This document shows, one piece after another, positions 3,943 through 63,491 of a DNA stretch of 64,000 nt (positions are counted from its first letter, which is position 1; every line of letters begins with the position of its first letter). The notes beneath the pieces are model-generated. The model was not told where the DNA came from. It worked only from the letters and a program-made list of their open reading frames with translations, and searched no databases. A program made the position numbers and the translations under genes. This DNA is from Undaria pinnatifida (lineage: Eukaryota; Sar; Phaeophyceae; Laminariales; Alariaceae), in assembly GCA_012845835.1 (NCBI GenBank), contig JABAKD010000011.1:5877730-5941729 (forward strand). Reading direction: 5' to 3'.

Positions 3943-3975
<33 letters not shown>

Positions 3976-5000: not shown

Positions 5001-8000
5001 ATGGACGAGGTGCTCTATGGAGACTACAATGGCCACATGCGCCCACTGAGTCGCATGTACTTCTCGCTCGATAGCCGCTGCCTCGTGGCTGACCACCCCG
5101 AAAGCGTTCAGGAGGAGGTGGAATCTCACTTTTGTCCACACTGCAATGCGCTGTGCACGACACCCGAGGCGCAGTCGAACGGAAACAGGTGCGCCATGAT
5201 TCACGCGCTACGCAAGGCCAGGTTGTAGTCCTGGAAATTAAACAGGTAGCAAGCAGCAGCGGGCAAGCAACCGTGTGGACACAGTGACTGTCGCTGTGTC
5301 CTCACTGCTGCTTGCTACCTGTCTAATCTCCAGCAAAGTCTTGAGGTTTGTACTTGTAGCCTGCCTCCAGCCTCGACCGCTGTGTCTCCGACCGTCATTG
5401 TTCGACGTGCTAGTCACAACTGAACGAACTGCGTGTCACCCTCTTACGCCGCTGTACCACAGGTGCTCGTGCTTGCAGAAGGTAGAAGGGTAGAAGGAGG
5501 GCATGGCGTGCCCGCGGATGTTCAAAACTACTGAACGAAATGCGATTTGCCTGGTATCTCGTACTGCTATGTAACCACAGCACAACAGGTACTCTTGTAG
5601 GGAGTAGCTGCATAAGGAGGCGCATGGCATGGCCACACCCATCACAAGAACATCCGGCCAACGCAAATTACACGAGAACACCACCGCCCACGTTCTGCGT
5701 TGTTTTGTTGTTTTGCCATGCTATCCGCCCCGCCGCGCCTTGTCTTTGGACGTGTTGTTGCCTCACCCGCCCTGTTTCGACTTGCAACTACTGCACGAAC
5801 TGCGAGTTTTAGTTCTCTACTGCTGTATATACCTTGATATGCCACATGTATCCGTCGTGTAGAAGGGAGGAACGGCGCGGCCGCCCATCGTATAACATGA
5901 ACAGGGAAGAATGAGCATCCAACGAAAACACATTATGTTACACCGTACAAGGGTACCACCGCCCAGGTCCTCTGCTCGTGTTCTACATACTCGAGCATGC
6001 TATCATTCCCTCCTTGCGTTCCACTTGCGTCATCCGCACACCCTGCACTAGCATGTACAGCAGTATCAGTCTCGATATTCCCGTAGCGGGTGTTTTTTTT
6101 TCACATAAAACTGATACTTCCACCCGTCAACATCCAGCACAACCAGTATTCGTGCCGATGCCTCCTAGAGCAGAGGGAGATGAGCTCTGTGGTCAAGGCC
6201 ACTGTTTATTGCAAGGTTATGTTCTGTAGAGTTTGTGGATCCCGGGTAAGGGTATGGGAGTCTTACAGAACTTCCAGAAGTTTCGGGTACGGGTATGAAA
6301 GTGTTACACAACTTCCAGAAGTTCCGGGTATTGTGGCACGGGCGTACAGAACTCACAGAAGTTCCGGCCGGGTACGAAAGGTGCTGTACCCGTACCCCAG
6401 GTATTGTGGCACGGGGTATACAGAACTCACAGAAGTTCCGGGTACGGGTATGAATGTCCTACAGAACTAACAGAAGTTCGGATACGGGTATGAAAATCTT
6501 ACAGAACTTCCAGAAGTTCCGGGTATTGTGGCACGGGCGTACAGAACTTAAAGGCGTTTCGGGTACGGGTATGAATGCCCTACAGAACTTACAGAAGTTC
6601 CGGGAACGGGTAATACCCGGGTAAATGCACACCCCTCGGGGGGGAGTTCGATTTGAAGTGGAGGATTTAATCCAACATGCATGAATGGCATGTTCTCACT
6701 GGGCCAATGGCCCCGAGGCAATCTGTCGTAGCTTTGAGGGAATCATGAATTATCGGCAAAACCACCACCGAGAGGTGATACATATATCGTGAACCTCAAT
6801 GAGTGGCCACCGGGGCAACAGCCGCGCTCACGGCTATACTGCGCTGTGATCATGTCATAGCGTACCCCGTCTGTGGCGCTTCAAAACAAATAATGGCGGT
6901 CGCAAGCCCATATTTGCCACCACAGCTCGATAAGCCGAGTGCCGTGACAAAGAAGAAGCGCAAATACCGAAAACACAGAAGATACTTCTACATGTCGATG
7001 GTTGCTGCATCGCCGTCACGGCAGATCTATATATTATTCCGATCGGAAAAACACTGATGCGTGGTTTCCCGATAGGCGCCAATTTTTGTACCAGGTATGT
7101 TTGCACCAAATCGAATCGAATTCATGAGAAATGAATACTCCGGAGTATTTTTTATTCCAAAGTGTCTTTCGTGCCCACGGGTTCGAAACGAAAGAAACAT
7201 GGACAGGACCTACAGGTGCTACTATCATATACGATACGTACTGCTACTGCTGTACATTCGGTGTTCGGTTGGTTTTACTGACAAGATATGACATCAAAAT
7301 AGAGTGCATAATACACTCTTTGGGTTATTTAACCTGAATTAATACATGTGGACTCCCCGGGTATTGTAACAAAGGTATACCCACCCCGGGTATTGTTTGT
7401 GCGACAGTCTTACAGAAGTCACAGAAGTTCCGGGTTAGGGTATGGAGATCTTACAGAACTTACAGAAATTGCGGGTACGGTACGGAAGTGTTATAGAACT
7501 CACAGAAGTTCCGGGTATTGTGGCACGGGCATACATAACTCACAAACGTTATGAAAATGATATACCCGTACCCCGGGTGATTGTGGCACTGGCGTACAGA
7601 ACTTCCAGAAGTTCCGGGTACGGGTATGAATGTCATACAGAACTTCCAGAAGTTCCGGGTACGGGTATGAATGTCCTACAGAACTCACAGATTTTCTTGT
7701 ACCAGGGTAGGGTAATACCCGGGGTAAATACCCCGGGTATGGTTTGTGCGTACCCTACAGAACACGACCTTGGTTTATTGTACCCCGATGCAGGCCATAG
7801 ATCTTGATCTATACAAGATTCGCCAAACGTAAGATCTGTGTACACTGGATGTGGAGTCGAACGTTGGTCCTGACAATTTCCAAGATCGGAAAATCCGCTG
7901 AAAAAGGGTGTTTCGATCTCAGGCTGAGATCGGGGCAAGGTATTTCTTCTCAGGATGTTGTCTCGAGGTTAGGCCGCAAATTTGCCCCCGCGCGCACACA

Positions 8001-24750: not shown

Positions 24751-24760
24751 TCTCCGGAGC

Positions 24761-34214: not shown

Positions 34215-34264
<50 letters not shown>

Positions 34265-37188
34265 TCCAGACTCAGGAGAAGCTTAAGCGACCCCCGTCCA
34301 CACCGCCGTCGCCACCAACACCGGTAGCAAGCGAAATAGAGGTGTCGGAGTCCGCCACCACCGCCACCGCTACCTCTGCAGGGCGCGCGGGCGACGGGGG
34401 AGGTGGGGACCCAGTGCCAACGACATGCAACTGCAAGAAATCGAAATGCTTAAAGCTGTACTGCGAATGCTTTCAGCGGCGACAGTACTGCTCGGACTGC
34501 AACTGCATGGAGTGTCTCAACACAGAGCGCACGGAAGACCTCCGGCAGGTGGCGATCCAAAACACCATCGACCGGAATCCGCAGGCTTTCGTGAGCAAGT
34601 TCGAGAAGCGCGCGGGGAAGAGGTCCCACAACTCCGGCTGTAACTGCAAAAAGTCGGCCTGCCTCAAGAAATACTGCGAATGCTTCCAAGCCGCTGTGGC
34701 CTGCGGAACGAACTGCAAGTGTAGTAACTGCAAGAACTATGAAGGGGCTGCGGGGGGGCGGAAGAGGAGGGCGACGGAGGCGACGGTGGCTGCGTTGCCG
34801 CCCAGGACTCCGCCGAGGATATCGGCGCGGGGGAGGAGGTTGGTGCCAACGGGAGGCGTGGACGGCTACGGGGAGGTGGCGGAAGAGAACGGCGCGCGTG
34901 TGGTGAGTGGGGATGGTTTTTTTTTGGTCATTTGTTTTGGTTGCTTGTGGCTGTTTTGATTTGTTGATGATTTTTTTTTTTGTTATTTGGTTGATTTGGT
35001 TGTTCTTTTTGATTGTTTTGGTTGTTCGTTTGGTGGGTTGTTTCGGCTGTTTTGGTTGTTTGGTGTAGTGTTCTCTTTTTGTATTTTTCTGCCACAAGGA
35101 AAATTCCAGTTGCCCTCTGTTGCTTTTATGTCACAGCTACGAAATACCCTTGTATATAACATAGTCACCATCCCTACATTCATTGAGACGTACATCTTGT
35201 AGGTAGCATTTTTTCAAACGGACGTTGGTTCCCGCGTCGGGTCCCCTCAGCCCCTTTAGAGCCCCAAAACCCCTCCTATACTGATTCCAGATATTGTTCC
35301 CCCCAAAACAGGTTTCCAGTTGTACAGGCGTTAGGCGGGAGCCAATAAGGTTGCGTTCCGTGATGTCGCTCCCCGCTTTGCTTTTTCCCCCCCCTGGAAA
35401 CCCACCGCTTCTTATCTTCTCACCGTTCTTCGGGGCGCGCGTGTGGTTTTTCAGGGTTTGTCTAAAAAGAGTAAGGGTTGCAGAATATTGCAGAATGTGA
35501 AGATAACGCCCCCTCCCGAGACGCTTGGTAAGTATGTATCAGGTAAGCGTCCAAGGACTGACGATTGCAGAACACTCATCTCGCGCCCCGCTTGTGAGGA
35601 CGGGTAGTATTCGTGTACATATTGAGGAGTTACGGTTGCAGAACATTAATGAAACACCCCACCCGCGCCCCCCCCCCCCCCCCCTCGTAAACCGACCACT
35701 CCAACACAGGCGAAAACCGTAGTGCCAAGCCCCGACCACCATGTCCAGGTAGGAGACGACGACGAGGACGCAACGCCCCCACCCCCCCTCGCCGAAGCTC
35801 TGCGACGCGCACCCCTCTTCTCCTCCTCCTGCGCCTCGTCCTCCTCTACCGCCACCACCGCCACCCCCTCCCCAGCGTCCTCCTCCTCCCGCCCGGGAGC
35901 ACGAGGACTCGTTCCCGACGAGTCGGGCAACTGTAGCAGCGGTAGCGGCGGCGGTGACCCCTCCGATACTCCTCCCGCGGCTGCCGCCGCTCCTCACAAG
36001 AATGGCGGCGGCAACGCTAACGTTCGGGGCGGCGCAGCCGCCACCGTGGGGGTGGCTGCGGCCGCCGCCGGGTCCGGCGTCGTGGGTAGCAGCAGCGGTC
36101 GAGCGGCTTCCCCCGCTGCCTCGGCGGTGGCGGACTGCGCGGTGGCGAGAAGTTTGCTGGATATGGGCGGAGCGACCCCACTGCGGGTGCAGGACGAGGA
36201 CAAGGAAGACGCGGCGGACGCGAAGTTTGAGCTTTCGGTTGCTGCGGGCTCTCCTGGGGCGATCCACGGGCTGTCGACGAGGCAGCAGCAGCAGGTGCAG
36301 CAGCAGCAGCAGCAGCAGCTGTGGCAGCGGCAGGGGAGGGCCCCGGGTCGAGGTGGTGGATGCGGGGGAAGAGGTGGGAGTGGTAACAGTGGAGATGATT
36401 GTGAGGGACGTAGTGAGGGTGGCGGTGGTGGTTGTGGTGGTGATATTGATGATGAGACAACCGTCGGAATGGACGCTTTGCTCAGCCGCGCCCGTAGAGA
36501 AGCGAATGGGAAGAAGAGGCAGGCCAGTAGCACCGCCGCTGCTGCTGCTGCCGCTGCTGTTGCTCCCGCTGCTTCTTCTGCTTTTTCCGCCGCTGCTATT
36601 TCTACCGCTACCGCCGCTGCTCCTGCTACCGCTGCTGGTGCTACCGCTGCTGGTTCTGGTTCTGCTGCTGTTGCTACCGCAGTTGCTGGTATCCCGAGTT
36701 TGATCGACAACACCCACGGATCGTCATCCATGACCACCGCCGACGACGAGAGTCTAGGGGATGGGAACGGAGGGCTGGTCGCGAGCAGCGAGAGCAAGGC
36801 CGGGGGAGGGCAGGCCTGCCTGACCCCGCCCATCCCTATTACCTGGAAGGGGGTATTGCCGGGGTTTGACGGCGCTCTCGTTAAGGATCCCGCCGCCGCC
36901 GCCGCTGCCAGGGCTGCTGGTGGCGATGGTGCTGCTGGTGCTGGTGCTGTTGCTGGTGCTGGTGCTGATGTGGCGCTGCCGATGTCGGGTGCAGGGGCTC
37001 ATGTAAAGGGTGACGCTCCTGCTTCGGGGGAGGCAGTGGGGTCGGCGGCGGTGGTGGTGGCGCGTAGGAGCAGCAGTCGCGGGAGGGGAGGAGCGAGTGC
37101 GGGAGCGGGAGCGGAAGCGGGAGCGGGGGAGGGGGCGGGGGCGGGGGTCGCGCCTACTGCCACTGTGTCGCCCTTCGTAACGCTCTAG
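29317..37188 (+). CDS. CXC-hinge-CXC DNA-binding protein (LIN54/TSO1/CPP type)
   Basis: Proposed exons 29317-29533, 31925-34902 and 35710-37188 (phase-1 then phase-0 intron) give about 1557 residues. The CXC-hinge-CXC module spans residues 907-1010: [17 protein letters not shown], an RNPQAF hinge, then [17 protein letters not shown]. In LIN54 the two Tyr before CEC enter the minor groove of CHR-type promoter elements, so this is probably a cell-cycle or developmental transcription regulator, perhaps in a DREAM/MuvB-like complex. A Gln/Lys-rich coiled stretch (about 789-861) precedes the module. Long Gly, Ser and Ala runs fill the rest. ATPVKSPG near residue 82 is a full CDK site (TPxK), and exon 1 has GTPPMSPSR. 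The module is certain. Exon 1 rests on phase agreement and a matching D-A-V junction. The last exon rests on an in-frame phase-0 join. Total length is well above usual CPP proteins because of low-complexity runs. Confidence 0.85.
30910..31100 (+). mobile_element. SINE family 2, 5'-truncated copy
   Basis: GGGACAGCTCATGCTATCG, GGACACGCCAG, TGGATTGCGAATGCAATTGA and AGCTTAAGCTTTATTTTT match the body and tail at 11030-11380. The 3' end is CCCCCGGAGGATATAAAAAA. The tRNA head is missing. Confidence 0.65.
31316..31922 (+). repeat. (CCCAT)n satellite with CCCAA and CCCAG variants
   Basis: Long CCCAT/CATCC runs flank a central block of CCCAA (31658-31705) and CCAGCCCACC (31706-31795) variants. Two non-satellite islands (31500-31537 and 31618-31650) are copies of the exon 2 start of the CXC gene. 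Confidence 0.95.
34903..35709 (+). other. CXC gene intron 2 (807 bp, phase 0)
   Basis: The donor is CGTGTG|GTGAGT and the acceptor CAACACAG|GCGAAA, both phase 0. The first 180 bp are T/G-rich. A miniature element sits at 35247-35334. A possible 34-bp microexon at 35494-35527 is flanked by ATTGCAG and GTAAGT. Confidence 0.6.
35247..35334 (+). mobile_element. piggyBac-like miniature element (TTAA type), copy in CXC intron 2
   Basis: CAG-CCCCTTTAGAGCCCC at the left and TTGTACAGGCG-TTAG at the right correspond to the TTAA-CCCCTTTA ends of the better copies at 52388 and 52759. About 85 bp, no ORF. Confidence 0.55.
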
Positions 37189-45925: not shown

Positions 45926-48900
45926 TCATCGTCTCGGCCCGAAGCTAGCCGAGTCCGCCCTTCGACCACCCCCCCGCCCCTGCCTCTGTCCCTCCTCCTC
46001 CGCCGCCCGCTCTTTCAGCACCTCCCTCCCCACGCCGTCCAGGTACGCCCTCGCTTGGCGATGGGCATAGAAACCTCCGTACCCCACCGCGGCCATAGTC
46101 GCCCCCGCGACTAGCGCCTGGTACCTTCCACCTGTTTCGGGGGGGAGGGGGGTGGAGAGGGGGGGGTACTCATTTGTTGCTTGCCTCGTTACGGGGGGGG
46201 CAATTACTAGCAATCAGGACCTACGTTATACATACAAATATAAATATTCCACACCCCGGACGGATCAGCTCACCGTTTCTCGAGCTAGCTCTGTCGACGG
46301 TAGCTCACCGGTGAGCTACGGGAGCTACATGATCCGCACATGTTTTCAAGGCTTGAGCCACAGAAGATAGCTAATCTGCACATATCTTTTGGGACGGTGA
46401 GCTATAGCCGGTGGCTCATCCGCACATGTTTGCCCAGGATGAGCTGTACGAGCTACATGATCCGCACATGTTTTCAATGCTTGAGCTATAGGCGATATCT
46501 CATATGCACATGTTTTCAAAGGGTGGGCTATAGTCGATAGCTCATCTGCACATGTTTTCGACGCTTGAGCTATAGACGATAGCTCATCTGCACATGTTTT
46601 CGACGCTTGAGCTATAGAGGATAGCTCATCTGCACATGTTTTGAGGTCGTGAGCTATAAGAGCTACATGAGCTAGCTCATGAGCTGCTGATAATCACAGG
46701 TACGAGCACACACAAACCACACCATGACAACGCAAACATCCATATATATAATTTATACTCCGGAGTATATGAGATCGTTTTTCTGTTTTTAATATGCCAG
46801 ATAGATAGACCAGAGTACCGGTGGATTTGTTTTTTCGGCACAACCATAACCATCAACCATAACTATGCCCATGCACCACCCGACCAAGTACAACTCAACT
46901 CAACTCAATCGAGGCACCTGCCACCCACAAACAAGAGCTCGCACGCACACACATACAACACCACACTACGCGCTTAGCATGGCCACCACCCGGGGAAGCA
47001 GCTCTAACGGTGCTTCGGCTGCCAGCAGCCAGTAAGAAGCGGGCGCTTCGATAGATTCGGTTCCACGCCGGAGGCAATCAATGTGGATGAAGACAACAAC
47101 CAAACCCAGGCTCTCTGTGCCGGCGTCTTCTGCCGTCCGGGAGAGGGACTTCAGCACGGTGGGGCGTCTCCTTACGGGTTCCCGGAGCAGCCTATCCGCG
47201 GCCTACGCGGAGATGGTCATGTTCCTCAATGACAACATCGACCACATTCCGATTGAAGTGCCGGCTCTCTCAACTGAGCAGGCGCTCCAGGCGGTACCTC
47301 GCCGTCTTTCCAACCCGAAGGCGGAGGTGGCCGCCCTTTCTGCGGGCGAGGCGGGGTTTGCGGGCGAAGCGGGCGTGGACGCCGCCTGCGATGAGCACGC
47401 AGGGGAGGCGGAGTCTTCGGGAGAAGAGGGCGTTAACGCCGGCTACGGTGACTCCGCAGGGGAAGGCTCGGGCTAGAAGCCTTGGGGATGAATGGGGGGG
47501 AAGCGGTAGATATTCTGTGCTGTTATGTATCTGCTTGCTCGTTTTTTTTTTGCTTTTTTTTGGGCGATGCAGATGATTCTCTTCTTTCTGCCTCTTGCCT
47601 CTTTTTTTTTTTTGGCACCTTGTTGTAGGCTACGCGAAGCCGTGTTGGAGGGATGGGGATGCACGGATTTCAAACGCTGTGTGTCAATATGGCCGCATTG
47701 ACTACTGCTGTTGTTATGTCTTCAATGTAGTTAAATGCTACTGCTGTGATATGCGTACGAAGCACGGCCTTAGTATCAATATGCCAGGCATTCATAACAG
47801 CTACAGTATACCAGGCATACTTTTTTTGACGTTGAAAGGGAGTACGATACTGTCGCACGTACCGACGTTGAAGTTTCGCCTGGATGGTGAGCTGTATAAC
47901 CTATATTCGTACCCGTCTCGGAGGCCAGGTTTGTTCATGTACACATCTAAGCACCTGCATGTTTTGCCCTGAAAGAACTACAATGAGCTACGTACATGAG
48001 CTGGCTCATGGGGTGAGCTATAGAGGATAGCTCATCTGCACATGTTTTGAACGCTTGAGCTATAGACGATAGCTTATCTGCACATGTTTTCCCGCCTTGA
48101 GCTAGAGACGGTAACGGTAGTTCTGCACATATTTTCAGAGCTTGAGCTATAGAGGATAGCTCATCCGCACATATTGCACCAAGGTGAGCTATAAGAGCTA
48201 CGTGAGCTAGCTCATTGGTCCCGGAATAGGCTATAGGAGCTACATGACCCGCACATGGTTTCAATGCTTGAGCTATAGGAGCTACATGATCAGCACATGT
48301 TTTCCAGGCTTGCGCTATAGGCGATAGCTCATCTGTACATGTTTTGGATGGGTGAGCTATCATCGATAGCTCATCCGCACATGTTTGCCCAGGATGAGCT
48401 ATAGGAGCTACATGATCTGCACACGTTTTCAATGCTTGAGCTATAGGAGCTACATGATCCGCACATGTTCTCAATGCTTGAGCTATAGGCGATCGCTCCT
48501 TTGCACATGTTTCGAGCGCGTGAGCTATACACGATAGATGAGCTAGCTCATGAGCTGTCCGGGGTGTGAAATATTCCCAAATTTTGTCAACAGTATTTGG
48601 TCCTCGTTACTATGCTCCCTCGTAAATGGTCATTGGGCCATTGACCACGCATCCCTTTTGAAACGGAACACCGTTCCTACTCCCAATAGAGACCCCTCCA
48701 ACATTGGGAAGCTCAGTGCACCTCTTCCACATAGACCCACTTACTGCTGTAACGTCGGTGCCTTCGGAGGCCACCGTCGGCAGTTCTCTGGCCTGTCAGA
48801 CTACTCTCAGCCCTTAAATTACCTACGGTGAAATTGTTTTTCCAAGGATCGATCCGGGGACTTTTTTCCCTTTTTTTTTCGTTTTTTTTCGTTTTTTTTC

Positions 48901-51900
48901 CTTTTTTTTGGTTGTTGTTGTTGTTGTTCCACCCTCGGTGCACACTAGGTAGACGATTTTCGTACGGTACACAACACGTTACTACGTAGACGTTTTTCGT
49001 ACGACAGAGATATAAAGCCACCAAACCAGGCAACTAATTTGGATGTTTTCTAACTACAGCTGACACTCAACGCTGTGATAGACTGCGGTCTAGACGCGTC
49101 ACACACTATTTTTTAGTCTGTAATATATGTTGTGACTGACTGGCGTGACCAAAAACGGCCGTCTATTTCTTTGCTGACACTTCAACTACATATTCCACGC
49201 TACTGTATGTGTTGTGTTGCTGTTGAACAATTTTTTCATCATCACAGTTACAAGTACACCACCAATACCAGGTCCTGGTACTGCCCTGGTCATCTTTTCA
49301 AAATTTTACTTGCGGAGAAAAACCACATCATAAGCGGATCAGCGTTTTTTTTTTTTCAGGCAACACCGGTAACATCAGCAGACATGCGATTTTTTCCTTG
49401 GTACACCGTCATCATCCTTCGGCTATTTCGGGGGTAACGCACATACATACATACATGCCTCCCTGGTTACGACTTCACCGACATAAACGACCACCGGCGC
49501 ACACAACGCGACCACAGTACAACAACAAAATCGTTCAAACAAGGCTTCCCTTCGGGATGTGTTTTGCTTCAAATCCCGGGGGGGGTCTCAAGTTGTACTG
49601 CAACGGGGGACAAAAAATTTGTAAAAATTAGAGGGAAAAATAAGTAGCCACCACCCAAGTAACCGGGCACGGCAACCGTCCAGCCCACGCGAGTTTTATA
49701 GCTTAGTCTCTCTCTACATGTCCTGCTGCAGCACCTTGCTCCTGCTGCACGAGCTCCGCACGAGAGTTGTACATGCCATATTTCCTGCTGCCTTGTTACT
49801 TCAATTCACACCATTGATGGTGTATCATCGCATGTCTCCTGAACACCTCCCCGCCCCCCACACCCCGTTGGCTTCACGTCCTGGAAACCTCTCTTTGATT
49901 GAATCATCGATGCCCTTGGAGATGGGTGTTTACGAACCACCGACACGCCGACCGCCAACGCACAGCCACAGACATCCAGCGCATGATTATGTCCCGCTGC
50001 GCAAATCCCTAGCGACAAACCGCGTTTCCTCATCACGACTTGCATATCACCCTATTCACTATTAATACCAAGTAATCCTACCCCATGTACCATTTGATGC
50101 TTGCAAACTTTAATGAATGCTTAACTTAATATATATAAGAATATCGTCATTCATGGCAAAGGTGCGGGTTCAATCAAGCCCCGTAAAGGACTGAGGTGTA
50201 TTTAAACATAGCTTTTCTACCTCTACTTGCTTCTCTTGTTTCAGGATTTTTTGGACGCTTACTTGGAGGCCGCGGTGCTGGTGTAGTGACCCCCACTACC
50301 AAGATGCGACGGTGACGTTTCTATTGAGGCCGATCCGAAATTAACCCTCAGTCGGCTACTTGACTACCGTATGCGTCGACGGCTAAGGTTACACACAATT
50401 CTTTCCGATAATATTCCCGGACGGGTGGCGCCATCCATGTCGACGAAAAGATGGAGGGGCAGCAGCGGTAGGGGAATTAGAAAATAGGGCTCCGACTAAA
50501 CAAACATGTGGGCAGCGATGAGCAAAAGGGGACTTCGAGTCTTGGAGCCCCGGGAGCTGCACACGTACGGCAAGTACAAAGAGGTTCCTTTGTTAAAAAA
50601 AAAGGAAGAAGTGTATGTGCATGGGATTATGCTCACGTTTTCTCTCTGAGCACTGCCCCTCCCTTCCCCCTCCCTCTTCCTCCCCCCCCCGAGAACCCCC
50701 AACGTATTCCCTTCAACTCTCTTCAACAAGCAGTGCCGGCCTGGTCGGCGAAAACCCGACGTGCTCCTTCCTGGCATTGCAGTGATGCGAGGGTCAATGG
50801 TCTTAACGACTACGGCCATGCAAAATATAACACCATTACACCCCTCCGCCATTCTCTTCCATCCTCCAGACCCCTCCCAGCCCCACCCACCCCTGGTCTT
50901 TTCCCCGCGACCCTGCCACGCAAAAGCAAAAAATATCCGGATTTCTGTCATCTCACCGATCGGAAGCGTGAGAGCCATGCCCGCCACCCAGCCGGCGCCC
51001 GCATAGCCCAGCGCGTCGCGCTTGCCCCCGCGCGCTTTTCGAATCAGAGCCTCGGAGCCTGCGGAGAGCACAGAGGGAAGGAGAGAGGACACGATAAAGA
51101 TATAAAGCCCACCAAAAAAACATAATTTGGGTGTTTTCCAAGTACCGCTGTCACTCACCGCTCTGTGACGAACCGCCATCTAGACGTCATATACTACTAT
51201 TAGTAGTATAGAATAAGGTGGGACTGACGTGCCTGGCAGCATCAGTCTCATTGCTGACACTTCAACCACATGTTCCACGCTGCTGCTGTGCGAGTGTAGT
51301 TTAATGAACCTCTCTTTCGTTAGGTGTCATATGTTACGTATATACCAGGTACGATATAATGTCATGCTTGCAAATTTGCTGTTTAGTTTCGCCAGTAGAA
51401 TGCCAGGTACATATGCGTATGTACCATCTGCCAGATTTGCTCGGCTGGTTAGGCACATCTCTGCATTCAGAGCCCGGCATGCTTTTTCCTACACCGCTGG
51501 GCTGTTGGCATTTTTTCAAGTCGCCCATTGCACCAAATCGTGAGCGTCCTTTGTCACTTACACTTTTATTTTTATATACTTCCTTGACGGGGGGTGATTC
51601 GACGCCCGGGGAGCGTGCGCAGCTCTGTTGGCATTTTTTCAAGTCGCCCATTGCACCAAATCGTGAGCGTCCCTTGTCGCTTACACTTTTATATGATATA
51701 TTTCCTCGACGGGGGGTGATTTGCCGCCCGGGGAGCGTGCGCAGCTCTGTAGGCCGTACATATCCACCTGTTGGGGGCCCACTTGCGTGCTACATGGACC
51801 TAATCACGATTATCTCGATGCCTTCGGAGGCCAACGTCGGCACTTTTCTGGCCGTTCAGACGACTTTCAGCTCTTAATCACCGACGGGAAAATTATTGTT

Positions 51901-54408
51901 TCCGGATCGATCCCCGAACTGTTTCATGTTTTTCTTCTAACCTGGTTCTCCTGCGCACACCACGAAGTTAAGGCACAATCTAAGCTTCGATAGTCACAGC
52001 AGCACCTACGTACCGCATGCACAACAGAGCAGCCTGCAATCGGGCCTGCACAGGGCGGCACAAGTACATACAGAAGTTTCGTTCATGTCGACCAGTCAGC
52101 TGAGCGCGACAACGCAAGCAGGCAGACAAGAACAAGTGTTGCTGAGAGCCACGTTATATTCTGCAGGCAGACAAGAACAAGTGTTGATGAGAGCCATGAT
52201 ATATTCTGCGAGTAGTTCATGTTTCCTTTTTCCTCTTTGATGTTGCTGTTGCTGTTCTTTGAATCACAAGGGTGATAAAGACACCACCAACAAATTTGCG
52301 GATTTTTCCCAAGTACCGCTGACACTCAACTCTGTGACGGACCGCCGTCCAGACGTAATATACTGCTGTTATTTTGTCAGGAACATCTTAACCCCTTTAG
52401 AACCCCCAAACCCCTCCCTATACTAATTCCAACTTATGTGTCCCCAAAAACGGGTTTCCAGTCGTAAAGGCGTTAATGTGTGAATGACGTGACCAACAAC
52501 AGCCGTTTCTTTGCTGCCACTTCAACCACATGCTCAACGCTGCTGCGTATGCGTGTTTATCTTTATAAACTTGCTTTACCCACCCACCGACATCCGTGTC
52601 GGCTCGTCACCGTAGAGACAAACCCTCTCTAGTCCCAAACTTCGAGACATGCATATTGCCGTATGCATCGGGCGCACGACGCATGCTACGATAGAGATTT
52701 GCAACACCCCTTGTTTTCTGGGGTTCCTCAAATGGGGAGAACTCAAGACAAGTCCTCCTTAACCCCTTTGGAGCCCCCGAACCCCTCCGTATACTAAGTC
52801 CAAGTAATTTTGTCCCCCAAAACGGGCTTCCAGTTGTAAAGGGGTTAACCCAAAAAACTGTTTTGGACAAAAGTAAACCTGCTTTATCGCGGATGGAAAA
52901 TCCCATGTCTAGGTATACAACAAGAGTCATGCAAAACCAAATAGCCTTTTTCCTGACGATTTTGGGTTAAGGATCCCTGCCATTCAGAAAACAAAATAGC
53001 CAAAAAAAGGTATACCTCTATCGTATGCATCGGATGTGCGACAGCAAGATACCAGGTACAAACGGTGTACTCATGCATGTGGCGTCCGGGTTGTTTTCTT
53101 GGAGCATGGCGGCGGAGCTTTTGGTATTTCCAAGCCGCCAGTTTGCACCTACAAATAATCATGGACCTTCTCCGCTTCACATGATTTGTCCCATGTTTCC
53201 TTCCTGAGCGAGCGTAGCGGGCGACGAATGCCGCCCGCGGAGCGAAGCGCCTTGTAAGCCGTACATATTAACCCTTACAGGACCTCCGTCGACAGCGACC
53301 AAAAACAGCGACGAGCACGATGTTATGAAGCCGCTATTGACAGAAGTGCACGCGGCAGTACGAGTATGACCATGCCGCCCGCAGTGTCGTGCAGTCCCGT
53401 ACGTTGCAGTTCGGACACATCCCCTATCCCAGCAGCTACATAACAGCCTCGCCTTCTTCGTGTGGCCGATGCCGTTATCGTCACACCACCATTTCGACAT
53501 GCTTTCACACACCTGACAGATCACGATCTAGACCATATATATCATATATACCATATAGATCATCTAGATCATCTAGATCATCTACTGTAGATCCTATATC
53601 TCTCGTAACGATATGCTGTGCAGGATCCGTGTACTGTAGTACAGATCCAACCGAGCAAACATACGCTATTAATACATCATCAGATCATTCGGCTCTCGCT
53701 CAGCAACATTATCTGTACGTCATGCAGATCAAGTAGACCAAGGATCTGTCTGCCCTGGAAGACACAGATAATCTATAGATCATCTGTAGGGAGCTGATCT
53801 GTCCGATATGTGCATGTTACCCCCTCTGAAGCCCCAAAGGTGTTTGACACGGTAACACCTTATGTACTCCAAGTATACCAGGTACATACCAAGGACGAGG
53901 ATTCAGGCTATCACACGTAAAGGTCGATGATGGTAGAGCAGCGTCAACAACAAGAACAACAACACCAACATCAACACCAACACCAACACCAACACCAACA
54001 CCAACACAATAACACCACCACCACCACCACCAACAACAACAGCAGCACCAACAATCATGACCACAACACCGACACACCACCACCATCAAAAACCACAACA
54101 AAAAGACCACAAGGAGACAAATATACTTACCATTATAGTGGACAAAAAATAAGACACCTCCCAATAAAAACTCACTCATATAGTATATTACGAGTACCAA
54201 CAACGCAGCTTGCAAAGATGAGTATTGACCTGAAATTCGTCAAACTCACGGCTGACGTCCTTGAAAATTAGTTAGAAAATATGCACAAACCCACCGAAAA
54301 ACGCTAGCGAGCCCATCCCGTAGTTCGCCCCCATGCTCGCCGCGTAAAATGGCACAGAGTGTCCGCGGTATGTCGCCAACAACGTTCCTGCGGCGACGCC
54401 AGCGAAGA
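45926..54408 (-). CDS. Tim17/NDUFA11-like small multi-pass protein (5' end not found)
   Basis: Three minus-strand exons, 54408-54295 (114 nt), 51058-50957 (102 nt) and 46131-45926 (206 nt, ending TGA), have matching phase-1 boundaries. Acceptors are CTGCCAG, CTCCGCAG and GAAACAG; donors are GTGGGT and GTGAGA. The joined protein (about 140 residues seen) has FAGVAAGTLLATYRG, YGMGSLAFFGSEALIRKARG, ALGYAGAGWVAGMALTLPIG and ALVAGATMAAVGYGGF, then a charged tail. Several Gly/Ala-rich hydrophobic segments and a basic R-K-x-R-G-G-K-R-D loop between them recall the Tim17/22/23 and NDUFA11 group of mitochondrial inner-membrane proteins. The family call is tentative. The first exon, which should end in phase 1, lies upstream and was not found. 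The last intron carries a complete hAT element. Confidence 0.6.
46262..46690 (+). repeat. Left subterminal array, 42-bp GAGCTATAG units
   Basis: About eight units of GAGCTATAGNCGATAGCTC followed by ATCTGCACATGTTTTC and a short spacer. Each unit has a palindromic half, and the array ends ATGAGCTAGCTCATGAGCTG. Confidence 0.92.
46978..47034 (+). pseudogene. Possible first exon of the hAT transposase
   Basis: The ATG at 46978 opens MATTRGSSSNGASAASS and then meets GCCA|GTAAGA, a good donor. A short Ser/Ala-rich leader is common before the BED finger in hAT transposases, but no finger is present. Inferred only from position within the element. Confidence 0.35.
47081..47476 (+). pseudogene. hAT transposase, C-terminal dimerisation fragment
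   Basis: The 131-codon frame has LSVPASSAVRERDFSTVGRL and TGSRSSLSAAYAEMVMFLND, matching the hAT dimerisation domain signature (P-A-[ST]-S-x3-E-R-x-F-S-x-x-G, then R-x-x-L-x-P/A). A tail of Ala/Gly/Glu-rich repeats (GEAGFAGEAG and similar) leads to the TAG at 47474. The RNase-H-like catalytic core is missing upstream. An ACCCAG acceptor near 47101 suggests this is a last exon. It lies centrally in the element at 46250-48568. Confidence 0.85.
47990..48545 (+). repeat. Right subterminal array, 42-bp GAGCTATAG units
   Basis: About eleven units of the same type and direction as the left array, ending GATGAGCTAGCTCATGAGCTG next to the right terminal repeat. Confidence 0.92.
48700..49200. repeat. 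Dispersed repeat family G, copy 1
   Basis: It holds TGCCTTCGGAGGCCACCGTC with a GATCGATCCGGGGACTTTT-type block, and a second part (GAGATATAAAGCCACCA through GCTGACACTTCAACTACAT). These recur at 51820-51940 and 51090-51290 respectively, and the second part again at 52270-52560. Confidence 0.6.
49201..50495. other. Gene-free spacer
   Basis: No exon or complete element recognised. It includes ACATACATACATACATGCC near 49440 and TTTTTTTTTTCAG at 49345, which is acceptor-like but without a matched exon. Confidence 0.4.
51500..51745. repeat. Tandem duplication, about 123-bp unit
   Basis: CTGTTGGCATTTTTTCAAGT through GCCCGGGGAGCGTGCGCAGC is present twice (from about 51500 and 51622), with small indels. 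Confidence 0.85.
52270..52560. repeat. Repeat family G copy split by a miniature element
   Basis: Left part (ACACCACCAA...CCGTCCAGACG) and right part (GTGACCAACAACAGCCG...ACTTCAACCACATG) align with the uninterrupted copy at 49010-49200. The insertion is 52388-52476. Confidence 0.7.
52388..52476 (+). mobile_element. piggyBac-like miniature element with TTAA duplication
   Basis: TTAA at both ends, inner ends CCCCTTTAGAA and CGTAAAGGCG. It is inserted into repeat family G, so the target site can be inferred from uninterrupted copies. Confidence 0.75.
52759..52848 (+). mobile_element. piggyBac-like miniature element with TTAA duplication
   Basis: TTAA-CCCCTTTGGAGCC at the left and GTTGTAAAGGGG-TTAA at the right; the outer CCCCTTT/AAAGGGG repeats are perfectly inverted. 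Confidence 0.75.
53205..53262. repeat. GC-rich palindromic element
   Basis: GAGCGAGCGTAGCGGGCGAC, then GCCGCCCGCGGAGCGAAGCG and CTTGTAA. Related copies are at 55394-55446 (reverse) and 59533-59583. Confidence 0.65.
53520..53800. repeat. GATC/TAGATC-rich tract
   Basis: Repeated AGATCATCTAGATCATC-like units and ATATATCATATATACC stretches, becoming degenerate to the right. A related tract lies at 56565-56670. Confidence 0.6.
53940..54050. repeat. CAACAC / ACC microsatellite
   Basis: (CAACAC)n followed by (ACC)n and AAC runs. Confidence 0.9.
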
Positions 54409-54599
54409 CTGGCAGGGATTGGGTTTTCCCCGAGGAGGCGTGGTCGTTGGGGGGAGGGGGGGGGGGGGGGAGCGTCACGGGAGATCAAATAATGCGCGCG
54501 TTTTCAGGTGGGGTTCGTTACCCATGGATGTTCGTTAACCAGATTTTCCGATGGCGTTCGTCAATGCGGCAGTGGCACGGCTTGTTGTCGAATACCACA

Positions 54600-54930
54600 G
54601 TTGTTCCTCTACAGTGCCGGTATGATACAGCCGGAAACACCGGTACTATGGCGGCAACCGGCACTACAGACCGGCAATAGAGCGGAAACCGGCACTACTC
54701 AACCGGCACTATATAGGGACCACTACTGCAGAAGGGGTTGAAGAACAAGGGGTGATGGAGATAATGACATCTCTTTGCTGTATATAGCGGACGCAGAGGC
54801 CTCTGATGTACTACTCAACCGGCACTATATAGGGACCACTACTGCAGAAGGGATTGAAGAACAAGGGGTGATGGAGATAATGACATCTCTTTGCTGTATA
54901 TAGCGGACGCAAAGGCCTCTGATGCTGCTT
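54600..54930. repeat. GGCACTATA MITE remnants plus a 124-bp tandem duplication
   Basis: 54600-54720 holds several CCGGCACTA blocks of the TATAGTGCCGG family. ACTCAACCGGCACTATATAG through GGACGCANAGGCCTCTGATG is then present twice (from about 54693 and 54815). Confidence 0.7.
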
Positions 54931-56160
54931 CACGACGACTGTACGGCTGGTGAGAGGGACGAGCGTTACCCGTATGATTTTGTTGCCCAACACTACCGAC
55001 GGCACAAACACGGCGATGGCGCGGCTCGTTGTTTAACCACATAAATCGAGGGACAAGGTTTTGAGGATAGCTGTTTTGATACTGGTACAAAGCAGTACCA
55101 GGTACGCCATAGTCCATAGCTTATCGACTTCGCTGTTGGTGGCGCAGAGCACCCGCATCTGCACCCACTTGCGACTTACGCCTTACACCTCATCGCAAAG
55201 GGGCGATTTCAAGTGGCCATCTCTATACAAAACTAGCTGCTGCTGGAGTGTTAAAACTAGCTGCTGCTTAGGTGTTGTAGCGCCGCGCTCATATCATAGC
55301 TCAATACCATGTTCACCATGCTGCGTTCCTAGCCGGGAAAAGGAAACTGATGATGTGGTGCTTTTGTAGTAATCTTGTGGCTACCGTAAGACACACAAGG
55401 CGCTTCGCTCCGCGGGCGGCATTCGCCGCCCGCTAAGCTCGCTCAACAACAAAAAATAAAGCAAATTATGTCAAGCGGACAGAAGTTCACGACTGACGGC
55501 AAGCGCAAAATCGGCGACTTTGATAATGCCAATAGTTCCGCCGCCATGCTCCAGGAACACAGCCCGGACGCCCCATGGATGAGTATACCGTGCGTTATAT
55601 TGCTTTATGCACCCGCTATGTTTATGCTTGTCTCGAAGTTTGCCACTACATAGAGATATTATTTTCTCGTCTCCTTTCTCTGGGATGACGAATCAGCACG
55701 GACACTGGTTGTGCTGGATGTCGATGGGTGGAAAAAGCAGATGAACAGAAAACATACACGTCAGTCACTCCTTATGTTCTTCGTGCTAAAAAATGATACT
55801 ACGTCTAGACAGCGGTCCGGTCGGTCACGAGCTGAGTGTCAGCGGTTACTGGAAAAAATCCAAATTAGTGGTTGGTGTGGCTTATTGTTACCATCATAAG
55901 CCTTCAAAGAACAACAGCATCCGGGGTCCAACGCCCGAATGGGTAGGGTGGACCGTAACTGGACCAAGTCCGGCGGAAGGCTGTTTTCTCATGGCCGGGG
56001 GTTTCGTTAGTGGGTGAGCTTGCCCAAGTCCCACACAACCCGGAATGACGGCGTCCCCGACAGCTATGCTATTTCCACCGCACATGATCCCCAGGGGTCA
56101 GGTCGGGTCGACATACTCAAACATCCGTATACAACGGCAGCGTGCGCTGCTGGAGTAGTA
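54931..56160. other. Gene-free spacer
   Basis: It contains a TACCAGGTA at 55096, a short direct repeat AACTAGCTGCTGCT (55231, 55255), the GC palindrome at 55394-55446, and small ORFs without domains. It should contain or precede the missing first exon of the Tim17-like gene, but I could not identify one. Confidence 0.4.
55394..55446. repeat. GC-rich palindromic element, reverse copy
   Basis: CGCTTCGCTCCGCGGGCGGC then GCCGCCCGCTAAGCTCGCTC; inverse of 53205-53262. Confidence 0.65.
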
Positions 56161-56164
56161 ACGT

Positions 56165-56450
56165 GGACCGCCGGTAGGGACAGCTCGCGCTATCGCTATC
56201 ACGGGAACTGAAGGTCACGCCAGAAACCCAGCTGGATTGCGAATGCAGTTGAGTCAAATAGACACACGACGTGGATAAAAATACGTGGACGGTAGGGACA
56301 GCTCGCGCTATCATCATCACGGGAACTGAAGGACACGCCAGAAAACCAGCTGGATTGCGAATGCAGTTGAGTTAAATAGACACACGACGTGGATGAAAAT
56401 ACGTGGAAGTGCGGTGAGCTTAAGCTTTATGTTTCCCCATTCGCGGAGTA
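56165..56450 (+). mobile_element. SINE family 2 body, tandem dimer
   Basis: Two consecutive units, each GGTAGGGACAGCTCGCGCTA through CACACGACGTGGATNAAAAT and CGTGGA, start near 56172 and 56290. The second runs on into GTGAGCTTAAGCTTTATGTT and the CCCCATTCGCGGAG tail. No tRNA head. Confidence 0.75.
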
Positions 56451-56669
56451 AAAAGCAACAACTAACAGCAACAGCAAAGAGGAAAAAAGAAAAAAGGACA
56501 TACACATTCCACCCCATAGGCAAACGTGCGTATAAGAGCTATTAATAGTGTATAAGAGCTGCTACAGCAGTAGATCGTACAGATCCCACCCCGAAAGTAT
56601 CATCTAGGCCCCGTAGATCCATACAGATTAGGGATCTATTTACTCAAAAAGATCTAGATCCCGATATAG

Positions 56670-57007
56670 TAGAGCTGTGAGTCGGCACGACTTAAGCCGC
56701 CAACTAGTTATTAGCCAGGCTACTAGTTAGTCATTTCCCGGAAGTGCCTGCTGCTATCCGACTTATTTGGTTTCCATACGTACGTGTGGGAACGATTGCT
56801 CAACGTGGGATTATTGTTTTAGTTTTTCCCGCGCCCCTTTCGGCCCGGGTAGGCTAACTTGGTCCGCATCGCTCGCCCGACTTAAGTCGGCAAGTCATTT
56901 GGGCATCAGCTGGAATCACCAGCCGTTTTGCCGCCCAAAGTCAGTTAGTCGGCTAAGGGCGCCTCCCGATTATTTTTTAGTCCACATCTTGCCGACTCAC
57001 AGCTCTA
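56670..57007. mobile_element. hAT-like MITE (338 bp)
   Basis: Perfect 18-bp terminal inverted repeats TAGAGCTGTGAGTCGGCA at 56670-56687 and 56990-57007. The flanking 8-mers cgatatag and cgaaatac match at 6 of 8 positions, a decayed 8-bp duplication. The inside has CTTAAG/GTCGGC repeats and no ORF. Confidence 0.7.
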
Positions 57008-58353
57008 CGAAATACCCTGGTAGGGGTATGGTCTGTTCGAGGTTTGGTAACAAAAGTAAGAAATGTGTAATCTTTACTCACTCCGCCAGAACAAGGATGT
57101 ATCCTAGAGCCGGGCTTGGGGTTTCTTACCTAGAGTACGGATAATTTAGTCGCGTCCGTAAACGGTGAATCCGTGTTGACGATCCATGTTACTGCTGAGC
57201 TGCTAAACTGTGTTTCACGGCAAGCATCGTACCTGGTGGCAAGTTTTTGTCGACAACGGCGGTACAGGCAGCGAGAAGCAGCAGCAGGAGCAGCAGCAGA
57301 GCAGCAGCCGGGAACCGAACTCGAAAACATGGAACCACACCGGAACCACACGACATCCCCCCTTCTTGCTCTACATCTTTACATTTTCAAAAAACAAATG
57401 AGTGCAGTCCGCACACTGCACGCTTGAAGGACGCCGCAAAGCTAGTAGTGTCGCTTAGGCACAATGGTGTAGCTCCCACGCCCTCCTCCTCTTCCCTCTC
57501 ATTCTCCTTTACCCCTCTCTGTCTGCCAACGCTTTCTTTCCTATGCTCGAGCTCAGATCTGCTCTCATACAACCACTTACAACATAATTCGATCTTCTGA
57601 GAGGCCCTGAGAGGCCTTCATTCTTTCGCTTTCAACACTAAATTTAAGACATTCTCCTCTCCGGACGACTGAGCGGGCTCGGATGCCTGAAACAGCGCTT
57701 CTCTCAGCGTTTTTTTTTTTTTTCAAAATTCAAGTCTTAAAAGTCATTTGTTGGGAGAAGTTGATTTTTTTGCTTCCCCACGTTTAAAACTCCTGATTTT
57801 TGGGAATACCACATACTACCCGGACACCGCCTCCTCTCGTTACTTGCGGAACGGTCCAGCTTTTCTTTGATTTCTTCCTTCCCCTTTTTTTTGAACGAGT
57901 AGTTGCACGAAGCTTTCTTCTTTCGTACCAGAAGAGGTCCCATCCTGATCATCTCAGGTTGGCTCACCACTTCGTCAGCTCAGCTCCGATCAGCAGCGCA
58001 CAGCAGCGCTAGCTCGGCAGCGTAGCGCTAGCTCAGCGGCGCAGCGCCGTGCAGTGCCGTTCCCTGGCGTGCCCTGCCATGCGGTGCGGTACTGCTGTGC
58101 GATGCTGTGCGGTGTTGTTATTCGAAGTGTCTTCGACCGGTACTACTGCCGTACGTACCAGGTACTGTACGTTGAATCACAAAAAAATGCTCACACAGCT
58201 GTGCTCAGCCCAGCTATAGCTCAGCAGCGCAGCGCAGTGCCGTGCAGTGCCGTACGGTGCCGTGCCTTGCCCTGCAGTGCTGTACCGTGCTGCGCTGTGC
58301 TTTACTTCGAACACACAGCAGTACCAAGTATCATGCGGTACCCGGTACCGACC
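57008..58353. other. Gene-free spacer
   Basis: It contains GCAGCAGGAGCAGC (57270-57310), pyrimidine-rich stretches (57480-57540, 57840-57900), and CAGTGCCGTGC-type degenerate repeats (58020-58110, 58200-58310). No exon recognised. Confidence 0.4.
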
Positions 58354-59261
58354 TACCGTAAACTACACAAGATAACACACCCCCGGTGATACATTTGAGC
58401 CCTTGAAAATATTATCACCGGGTGTGGTATCCTGTGGGGCGATAGGTATCTTGTGTAGCCCCGGTGATAGGGTGCTGGTCGCGGCGGCCCCCAGGGGGTG
58501 TGATAAACCAGGGGGTGTGATAGCACGTCCGACCACCCACAGGGTACGTTTGGGGGTGTGATAAATGTGGGGGTGTGATAAACCAGGCGGTGTGATAGCA
58601 CGTCTGAACACCCACAGGGTGTGTTTGGGGGTGTGATAAATGAGGGGGTGTGATAAACCAGGGGGTGTGATAACCTCCGAGCACCCACAGGTCGTGCTTG
58701 GGGGGGGATACCGAAACACTCCTTGTAGAGTTGAGCCGCTGCTGGTGAGGCGGTGCGGGGGCTGTCATGTTGGTGCCTGCTGCTGCTGCTGCTGGTAGAT
58801 CAGCAGCAGCAGGACGAGGACTCGTGGCAGGAGTCGCTTGTGTAGGAGAAGTGCGCTCGAGTTGAAAGAACGACGTGATCTGTGGCGCCTGCTGTACTGC
58901 TGCGGTCGAAGCAGGTGTCGGAGAAGCGGGGGCACTTGCAGAGGCATTCTGCTCTCCCTCAACGTTCATGTTCTTGGAGGTCTCCACACGGGGTGTTCCC
59001 CCCGCACACAGGGTGTGGTGTTGTGTGCCCATGGGGCAGATGTCCCAAGACCCCGGTGGTAGAAAGGAGGGGCCCCGTGAATGTATGCGGCGTAACTAAA
59101 ATTATCACCGGGGTGTGGTATCTTGTGTAGCCCCGGTGGCATATCGATGGTTGCAAAAATGCGCCCAAAGTTATCACCGGGGTGTCGTATTCTGTGGGGG
59201 GGGTGTTCTGTGGGGGGTGTAATATCTTATGTGGGTGTGTTATCTTGTGTAGTTTACGGTA
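58354..59261. mobile_element. 908-bp transposon with perfect 29-bp terminal inverted repeats
   Basis: 58354-58382 and 59233-59261 are perfect inverse copies (outer end TACCGTAAACTACACAAGAT). The outermost TA on each side may be the target duplication, leaving 27-bp repeats starting CCGTAAAC. Inner repeats of GTGTGATAAACCAGGGGGTG (58498-58680) and ATCACCGGGGTGTGGTATC (58410-58430, 59100-59195) fill the ends. The centre holds a minus-strand ORF. No transposase was seen. Confidence 0.85.
58415..58969 (-). CDS. ORF carried by the 908-bp transposon
   Basis: The function is not recognised. The ATG at 58969 opens MNVEGEQNASASAPASPTP. About 83 codons of Ala/Pro/Thr/Gln-rich sequence follow, then the frame runs into the transposon's inner repeats to a stop at 58415. 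It contains APQITSFFQLER, which resembles a PCNA-interacting (PIP) box, x-x-x-I-x-x-F-F, but lacks the canonical first Gln. A captured host gene fragment or a chance frame are both possible. Confidence 0.3.
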   Translation of the reverse strand: MNVEGEQNASASAPASPTPASTAAVQQAPQITSFFQLERTSPTQATPATSPRPAAADLPAAAAAGTNMTAPAPPHQQRLNSTRSVSVSPPKHDLWVLGGYHTPWFITPPHLSHPQTHPVGVQTCYHTAWFITPPHLSHPQTYPVGGRTCYHTPWFITPPGGRRDQHPITGATQDTYRPTGYHTR

Positions 59262-59532
59262 TATGTACATGTGTACAAGTACTTGTATATTTTTTTCGAT
59301 TTCTTCATTATATTATCCTCTCTCGGGTCCGCCTGTTTCTTTTCTCGAAAATTGAAAATTACACCCATACTGGCGATCAGAACGTGACATCGCCAACAAG
59401 AACACACAGCACAACACAGGGCAATCAGCTCTGCGTATAAAGCAGCTCTTGACATTATCAAATCGCTACGAGATGCACAAAATCATGGCCCTCTTCTTTC
59501 TGCCGCCTTCACATTTAGTTGTATTTTTCCTT

Positions 59533-59583
59533 GCGCGAGCGTGGCGCGCGGCGTCAGCCGCCCGCGGAGCGGAGCCCTTGTAA
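59533..59583. repeat. GC-rich palindromic element
   Basis: GCGCGAGCGTGGCGCGCGGC then GCCGCCCGCGGAGCGGAGCC and CTTGTAA, related to 53205-53262. Confidence 0.6.
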
Positions 59584-59624
59584 TGACGTACCAGGTACCA
59601 GGTACTGGCATTGACTCTGTTATA

Positions 59625-59629
59625 CATCG

Positions 59630-59693
<64 letters not shown>

Positions 59694-59757
59694 CCTCACA
59701 TTAACTCGCATAATCAAGTCCGTGGTCACAGGACAGGCTCCAGTCACTCTGGAGCTG
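59625..59757 (-). repeat. (TTG)23 run with retroposon 3' end
   Basis: About 70 bp of TTG/TGT repeats (AAC on the minus strand) join a 60-bp block also found at 2605-2680. This fits a retroposon 3' end with an (AAC)n tail inserted in minus orientation. Confidence 0.65.
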
Positions 59758-61300
59758 AGGAATACCCTAGGGAAAAACGTTTTCCGAAAAACAAACAACC
59801 CAAGGAGGTACACGCATATATCACAGCTGACGCAATTCATGCCTCCACCAGAAACATATAAAAGTGAAATCGGGAGTCAGTCTACGATACATAGGCTTTG
59901 CCAACTCAGAGGTTGAGGTTTGCCGTGCCGTTTGCTCGAGATCATGCATGCTCCACAGAACGAGCGACAGCAGTATGCAACTGCACCTGACGCTCGCTCT
60001 AGCAAGAAGCGAGCGGCTGTCGATGCTGATGATGTGGACCTAGCGCAGCACAACAGGAACAAATCAAACCAACATCGATTGCTATTGCTGCATTGCACCA
60101 AAATAATGCACAGGAAACCACCCATAGGGACTCGTACCTCCCATCGCGGTGTTCCTTCCGACCCTCTCCCAAGCACTCATCGCCGAGGGCACGGCAGCGC
60201 TATGCTCAGCCATCGAAGCCACCAGCTGTTTTTCCTTCATAGGTTCTTCCTCCGCCATGCCTTGCCAGCTCGCGTTATTGAGTTGTGCTGGTTGCTGGTT
60301 TGTCTAAAACAGATGATGAATTGATAAATTGTGAAAGAACGTTGCACGAGCGGTGTGGTTCCAGGATTTGAAAAGATTGACCCACAGATCAAAAGCTACT
60401 GCTACACACGTGCAAAGTTAGCACTACGCCTTGGTAGAACAGGAGCATAGCAATCTGAGAACCCAAGCAGTAGCCGATTCTGTGCCCTACATCCTACAAA
60501 CGAGCAGCTGCCAACACGCAGCGATACACGAACCTCCCCACCGATAGATTTCAAGAGGTGCGGCGGAACCTCTCACGACGCTCAAAACGCGCGAAAGTAG
60601 AAACAAATTAGAGAGGTGCCGGCGGCGATACCCCTCTCACAGCACCCGAACTTCAACACGACGCTCAGACGCGCGGGAGGTAGAACCTATTGCCACGAAC
60701 TCGGCACAGGAAGTAGTAGTAGATTTACACAGGTAGGACAAAGGCCTAGCGCCCAGCCGCAGAAAGCAGGTCCCAAAAACACCAGAAACAGCGGTTGATT
60801 GGGTATTGCGAAATCCACGTTTTTTTTGTGCGAAAACGTGCTCAAACGCAGATAGCACACGCTTAGTTTCCCTGAGGCGAATTGCCATGGTGCGTAGCGT
60901 GCGAGATGGGCTGCGCTCTTGGGGTTGCGTGGCACTTTGAATTGTTCAGCATAGTGCACTACACGTTGTTGAATCGTCGATGGCGTGATCGGTGTTGGTG
61001 CATGCAGCATCTTTTCTTGTTTGTAAAAATTGAAAAACGTCAGCTGTGTAAAAAAAAAAGACTCTCCTCCAACATTAATATGACAGCAGCAGCAGCAGCA
61101 GCAGTAGTAGGTTGCGCCGCATTTTGCTGCGAAGTTTTTTTTCGAGGCATTTTTTTGGGGTCGAATATCTTCTCTTCTTTTCTATATAGATAGGGCCGAA
61201 ATCGACACGAATGTCATGTACTGCTAATAGTACCAGGTATTGGATAGTCACATGTACCAGGTATTCGTTGTTTTTTTTTTTTCCCTCGCTTTCTCTTGCT
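59758..61300. other. Gene-free spacer
   Basis: No supported gene. The 134-codon ORF at 59920-60324 has no domain. TACCAGGTA occurs at 61231 and 61255. A degenerate 60-100 bp repeat with GAGGTGC(C)GGCGG and GACGCTCA(A)AACGCGCG lies at 60555-60690. Confidence 0.4.
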
Positions 61301-61990: not shown

Positions 61991-62109
61991 TCGATCTCAC
62001 AGCTGGAAAGTGTATATTAATTTTTACAATATCATCAGCTAGCTGCTGCTGGGACGTAAAGAACTTAATAAAAAGTTCATTTTTCGAAATTCTTAATACA
62101 ACGTGTTCC

Positions 62110-63395: not shown

Positions 63396-63491
63396 TCTAT
63401 CTAGATGGATAGGCTACACGCAGCATGGTCGGTTTCATACGTCAGGCCGTGCGCCGGTACACACTGGCGCACTTTTGTCGTTCATCAAAAT

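Follow-up and report, generated by a model that had tools for sequence, protein, structure and literature searches.

A non-autonomous hAT element of Undaria pinnatifida with same-direction arrays of 42-bp units at both ends

The stretch analysed here (the window) comprises 64,000 nucleotides of the brown alga Undaria pinnatifida (assembly GCA_012845835.1, contig JABAKD010000011.1, positions 5,877,730 to 5,941,729), and a transposable element of 2319 bp was located at its positions 46250-48568. The element is delimited by perfect 12-bp inverted ends, the left terminal inverted repeat (TIR) CACACCCCGGAC at 46250..46261 on the plus strand and its exact reverse complement GTCCGGGGTGTG at 48557..48568 on the minus strand, and by a perfect 8-bp target-site duplication (TSD; no strand assigned), AAATATTC, read from the sequence at 46242..46249 and again at 48569..48576. 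The original prediction had placed these borders exactly to the base, and the borders of other copies of the family proved to be the same. Short TIRs beginning with CA are a criterion of the hAT superfamily; they are present at both ends of the element, as is the 8-bp TSD, a further hAT trait. Helitrons possess neither TSD nor TIRs, and the presence of both ruled out an assignment to that class.

The left TIR is followed by an outer segment (46262..46308, plus strand) with a partial mirror at the right end; comparison of the left end of the majority consensus with the reverse complement of the right end showed that the outer ≈ 50 bp alone are mirrored, and these only in part, through the TIR, CAGCTCA, GAGCTAGCTC and TAGCTCAC. 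The left array of 42-bp units (46309..46686, plus strand) holds eight units by weight matrix, its last part being ATGAGCTAGCTCATGAGCTG, and the right array (47993..48556, plus strand), which runs in the direction of the left one, holds ten units by weight matrix and 12.5 by Tandem Repeats Finder (TRF). TRF itself delimited one 42-bp array as 46332-46658, with 7.7 copies, and the other as 48014-48541, with 12.5; together the arrays account for 41% of the element. The pattern GAGCTATAGNCGATAGCTC, with at most three mismatches allowed, matched 22 times in the window, always within the element (0.01 expected from shuffles), with 12 matches on the plus strand and the remaining 10 being those same palindromes read on the minus strand. 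Besides the half-site, the unit possesses a second strongly conserved block, GCACAT, and the polar spacer word GCACATG occurs seven times forward and never in reverse in each of the two arrays. A 42-bp weight matrix, derived from 19 units of the window, recognized 18 forward units in the element (8 left, 10 right) and no reverse one, and not a single unit in the background, which covered 122,516 positions on the two strands of 1-46000 and 48701-64000; as the matrix was trained on window units, the informative part of this result is its silence elsewhere and on the opposite strand. The claim of 42-bp units at both ends in one common direction was thereby borne out. Local alignment of the two arrays with each other scored 450.5 in direct and 211.5 in inverted orientation (raw scores, without shuffle control), and on this ground, together with the unit count of 18 forward against 0 reverse, a foldback architecture with long inverted terminal arrays was rejected.

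Between the arrays lie the residues of a transposase gene. A short frame (46980..47036, plus strand; ATG, 18 codons, stop) probably marks where the lost transposase began; at a further locus (L077), a comparable start leads into a longer frame. The open reading frame (ORF) of 131 amino acids at 47081..47476 (plus strand) is a remnant of the transposase C-terminus, of which residues 11-53 correspond to Pfam Dimer_Tnp_hAT (PF05699; E 9.8e-6, exceeding the curated cut-off), and the majority-consensus peptide from 36 copies matches the same domain with E 7.1e-14. Residues 10-51 align weakly with the Hermes transposase (E 0.0098), with LSVPASSAVRERDFS placed on LSIPASSAASERTFS. In this alignment Glu 21 of the ORF falls on a glutamate 11 residues into the Hermes match, position 572 of chain 8edg (E ≈ 0.01), which we take to be the catalytic Glu of the DDE triad. 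The region for the two catalytic Asp residues and the RNase H fold has been deleted from the window copy, and the region of the N-terminal BED zinc finger is likewise absent. The C-terminal remnant and the 8-bp TSD identify the element as a hAT with both ends, and since most of the transposase gene is missing, it is a non-autonomous deletion derivative. Its description as a complete hAT thus holds for the two ends, the 8-bp TSD and the C-terminal remnant, but not in the sense of an autonomous transposon.

The assembly searched for relatives comprises 511 Mb in 68 contigs. With the element as query, 40 of 335 first-look candidates were scored, and the resulting 79 matches were grouped by hand into 40 loci including the window; a search with the start-codon region gave 40 further matches at 30 loci, six of which (L048-L053) were already in the set. 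Measured by its best aligned piece, each of the 40 copies shares 84-95% identity with the majority consensus. The weight matrix was applied to 64 loci (the window, the 39 other main loci and L054-L077), and wherever units exist they are forward relative to the element, with a single reverse unit in L028. Several copies are poor in units (none in L042 and L070, one in L041) or retain one array only (L027, L029, L039, L043 and L044). For the TSD count, two loci at duplicate places (L066, L071) and eight loci with fewer than eight units were left out; 37 of the remaining 54 loci possess both ends (30 of the 40 main loci and 7 more distant ones) and form the sample. Nine of these carry exact 8-bp TSDs, 16 match at 7 or more of 8 positions, and three more show exact 7-bp duplications, such that the TSD is exact or one base off at 19 of 37 loci; in a shifted control, 7 or more matches were obtained in 5 of 5100 cases. 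The 7-bp instead of 8-bp duplications were observed in L017, L024 and L035. From the 22 loci whose duplications agree at 6 or more of 8 positions, a target preference nAAnnTTn was derived. The Ac and Buster families of hAT elements have the TSD motifs nTnnnnAn or nnnTAnnn, neither of which this preference generally follows. The window and L045 both have AAATATTC as TSD in seemingly unrelated flanks (local scores of 21 and 24 over 300 bp, without shuffle control).

Many other copies lack the stretch 46985..47109 of the window (no strand assigned), where matches end at query position 743 and restart at 869, and carry ≈ 67 different bases there, the mark of a different internal deletion; in the majority consensus the start region is joined directly to LLSFWANEGQPIYPNMARVARVLLSVPASSAVLERDFSTAGRLITG at this place. 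In copies having both ends, both arrays have been kept through these two different internal deletions, as is expected of cis-acting sequences.

The common direction of the arrays has an explanation in a partial direct duplication between them: positions 64-330 at the left and 254-520 at the right of the majority consensus align without inversion, with 93% identity over 267 bp. Position consensuses of the left units L0, L1, L2 and L4 pair best, and in order, with the right units R-5, R-4, R-3 and R-1, while unit L5 is out of order, being closest to R-4 and not to R0. Among 534 units from 32 copies, the identity of units at the same position in different copies amounts to 0.816, whereas units that share an array in the same copy (0.699) resemble each other no better than other pairs do (0.706-0.709); hence the arrays are inherited as ordered cassettes, without homogenisation. 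In the assembly, an exact 31-base unit pattern was matched 145 times (reversed control pattern, 0), and the 100 matches listed form 63 clusters, 34 of them singletons, the largest with 5 matches and the longest spanning 2610 bp; none of the 29 multi-match clusters mixes strands. Of the 63 clusters, 44 lie within 4.5 kb of an already listed family match; small solo arrays could exist among the other 19. Ordinary satellite DNA, which the original prediction had named, beside deviating borders of other copies, as a finding that would speak against it, was therefore rejected, in that no free-standing blocks were seen among these 100 of 145 matches.

A second element of the same design lies in the window at 6212..7772 (plus strand), with ends CAAGGT.../...CCTTG, of which 21 bp are 86% complementary, and a perfect TSD, GTTTATTG. 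Its arrays (6242-6612 and 7406-7700) run in the same direction and consist of 40-41-bp units with the palindrome GAACTTCCAGAAGTTC. Of 1700 first-look candidates for this family 40 were scored, and 22 matches, the window's own included, reach from query position 12 or less to at least 1510 with 82-100% identity. The element is putatively assigned to hAT by its TSD and ends.

A locus reached through a C-terminus 42% identical to that of the window family (L082, C30:26673800-26680800) is apparently a complete coding hAT of a sister family. The element occupies 578-6484 (5907 bp), with the ends CACGCCCTGTAC and GTACAGGGTGTG and the flanks AAATTTAC and AAATTTCA, which match at 6 of 8 positions. Four minus-strand frames (511, 210, 138 and 190 aa) may be read as transposase exons, three of them by eye; the longest, the sole frame with a significant Pfam match, hits Dimer_Tnp_hAT with E 3.4e-12 and Hermes with E 1.3e-5. 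Its arrays (604-1042 and 6153-6422) are again built of 42-bp units, of a sequence unlike the window unit, and the unit word CTG[CT]GCAAA occurs 14 times forward and 0 times in reverse. The same count, 14 forward and 0 reverse, was obtained for L081, a shorter relative with two arrays. The outermost left unit of L081 (887-927), missed by this word, is inverted with respect to the rest of its array. This hAT derivative (≈ 887-2914) apparently sits inside another hAT gene, whose ORF 243-743 resembles, by eye, a mid-transposase portion. About 25 loci, L081 among them, carry a 123-aa open frame that is 43-45% identical to the window remnant and constitute another multi-copy hAT family. A further hAT, L079 (PF05699, E 1.7e-12), has a 41-bp array downstream of the gene with the palindrome AGTTGTCC-T-GGACAACT; L080 contains a 43-bp array (1811-2194, palindrome GGATCTAGATCC) ≈ 6 kb from the array of L079. 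In L078, repeats lie upstream of a 467-aa hAT frame (with a piece of 58% identity; PF05699, E 3.9e-9), and the palindrome of their unit is not significant. Closer to the window family, the long rearranged locus L083 retains a left end, three clear units, coding pieces and two weak right units. Thus the design of same-direction arrays of 40-43-bp units recurs in other transposons of the genome, and a similar period and layout are found in elements with other unit sequences (the second window element and L082). Clearly related units were found for the pairs L079-L081 and L078-L080 only. A spacer conserved across families (TGCNCANGTTTT), appealing by eye, was rejected, the comparison of the window unit giving p 0.075 with L081, 0.115 with L080 and 0.57 with L079; with L078 it was marginal (p 0.0375, uncorrected). 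In viral contigs, the 28-base unit pattern had 0 exact matches, and of 13 pattern matches to C-terminus relatives 0 were confirmed.

Elsewhere in the window, a 342-bp tandem repeat (23625-24751, 3.3 copies, 98%) is read through by a 416-aa ORF, and a 1008-aa ORF (31933-34959) contains two CXC (tesmin/TSO1) stretches and matches the LIN54 structure 5fd3 (1.2e-29). Neither a tRNA nor an Rfam match was found in the 64 kb.

It is probable that this internally deleted, non-autonomous hAT has kept its cis requirements, and that the arrays serve as multi-site docking platforms for the transposase of the family. The binding itself is suggested by analogy with the subterminal repeats of Hermes, for which passages of one study (PMC10368747) describe how two repeats make up a quasi-palindrome to which two BED domains bind cooperatively, many such domains being brought together in an octamer. 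In the same passages hAT transposases form large oligomers, and the need for many subterminal sites is still under study. Most units of the window element present a dyad-symmetric site, GAGCTAT-n5-ATAGCTC, on which paired N-terminal DNA-binding domains of an oligomeric transposase could close. The period of 42 bp is close to four helical turns (42/10.5), which would align successive sites, ≈ ten per end, along a single face of the DNA. The mirrored outer ≈ 50 bp, comprising the TIR and the first palindromes, may be recognized by the catalytic core, where inverted symmetry would be needed; the inner array, with its largely symmetric sites, would not depend on a mirrored direction and could tolerate being duplicated directly from one end to the other. 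As the left array separates the left end from the probable transposase start, a bound array could also regulate the gene.

Several observations weigh against docking. The palindrome that the original prediction had quoted for the units is absent from some of them, as 7 of 20 listed window units repeat the half-site directly (type GAGCTATAGGAGCTACATG) and have no inverted palindrome. In a palindrome shuffle test, four of six unit consensuses passed (p 0.001-0.0145), but those of L081 (p 0.10) and L078 (p 0.95) were not significant. Both orientation scores of the array alignment, as said, are raw. Among the 54 loci, 17 have no recognizable end within three mismatches, and 18 of the 37 loci with both ends fall short of a TSD that matches at 7 of 8 positions or exactly over 7 bp, including L027, whose ends were mispaired over 575 bp. 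No intact transposase of the exact window family was found among the copies and relatives; L083, although of coding size, has duplicated C-terminal pieces, and its right end was not found. Pfam called no BED domain in the first frame of L082 (4975-5544), where a C/C/H/H pattern was seen by eye. According to the passages on Hermes, its right end binds no BED domain, and shifting the left sites by one bp severely impairs cleavage (PMC10368747), a picture unlike that of two large arrays whose length varies.

The arrays might instead be control sequences through which transposase or host factors regulate or silence the transposase promoter, unneeded for the synapsis of the ends. The position of the left array directly upstream of the probable start (46980) and the conservation of GCACAT beyond the half-site would suit such a role, which nevertheless appears unlikely, as the right array is on the downstream side of the gene, and copies without a working gene still keep both arrays; in L082, moreover, it is the right array (6153-6422) that the gene start adjoins, while the left array, the longer of the two, is at the 3' end. 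Passive satellite growth inside the transposon, devoid of function, is a still less probable origin: slippage can enlarge tandem arrays, unit numbers differ among copies, and truncated copies have one array or none, but units are not homogenised within arrays (0.699 versus 0.706) and agree best at the same position across copies (0.816), the listed matches form clusters of at most five without satellite blocks or mixed strands, and elements with other unit sequences share a similar period and layout. It is highly improbable that the palindromes act through DNA structure, as hairpins or foldbacks with a protective role at the ends or an influence on gap repair, as in Tam3. Single-strand folding of the left array does beat dinucleotide shuffles (z -3.15), of which 1 in 100 did equally well, but the stems measure 7-8 bp and many units have none, internal deletions with at least two different junctions are common, such that gap repair was not blocked, and two ends whose arrays are direct cannot pair as a foldback along their whole extent.

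The window element resembles Ds of maize (Ac/Ds), an internally deleted hAT that keeps both ends with subterminal repeats; Ds is not known to carry long 42-bp palindromic arrays. With Hermes it would share multiple subterminal sites, a palindromic site pair and an oligomeric transposase needing several sites, but it differs in having 42-bp units, ≈ 8-12 per end, in the same direction at both ends (PMC10368747). Herves, another hAT, likewise carries a tandem-repeat block near one end with a repeated transposase-binding motif, but this block is confined to the left end and is made of three imperfect repeats of 100 bp (passages of PMC3143072). Transposase sites within tandem repeats near the ends are also described in passages on Galileo and Foldback-like elements, whose authors suggested the many sites as a source of specificity; Galileo, however, belongs to the P-element superfamily, with a THAP domain and long inverted repeats, whereas the window arrays are direct (PMC3688188). 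The Atlantic cod hAT miniature inverted-repeat element gadMor-hAT-1784 is non-autonomous as well, with ≈ 600 bp of tandem repeats per end, but its units of 167-169 bp stand in inverted repeats (passages of PMC12368964). For Ectocarpus, hAT elements make up 0.05% of the genome, and such arrays go unmentioned in the passages of that transposable-element paper (PMC12477816). Searches of the open-licence PMC library, which lacks most subscription papers, brought up no paper recognizable as a description of hAT elements with palindromic arrays running in one direction at both ends.

The window element is a genuine, well-defined hAT derivative of an ordinary kind, whose end architecture is unusual and yet recurrent in the genome. 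It is conceivable, albeit doubtful, that a group of hAT-like families in this genome follows one design of long same-direction arrays with a period of 40-43 bp at both ends, in which the palindrome of each family would be a swappable address co-evolving with the DNA-binding domain of its transposase, docked by a filament along one face of the DNA rather than at a few scattered sites. The findings suggest that subterminal arrays may not need mirroring if their sites are symmetric, and the sites, set in regular arrays with different palindromes per family, offer a natural series for testing the roles of site number, spacing and symmetry in the recognition of transposon ends.
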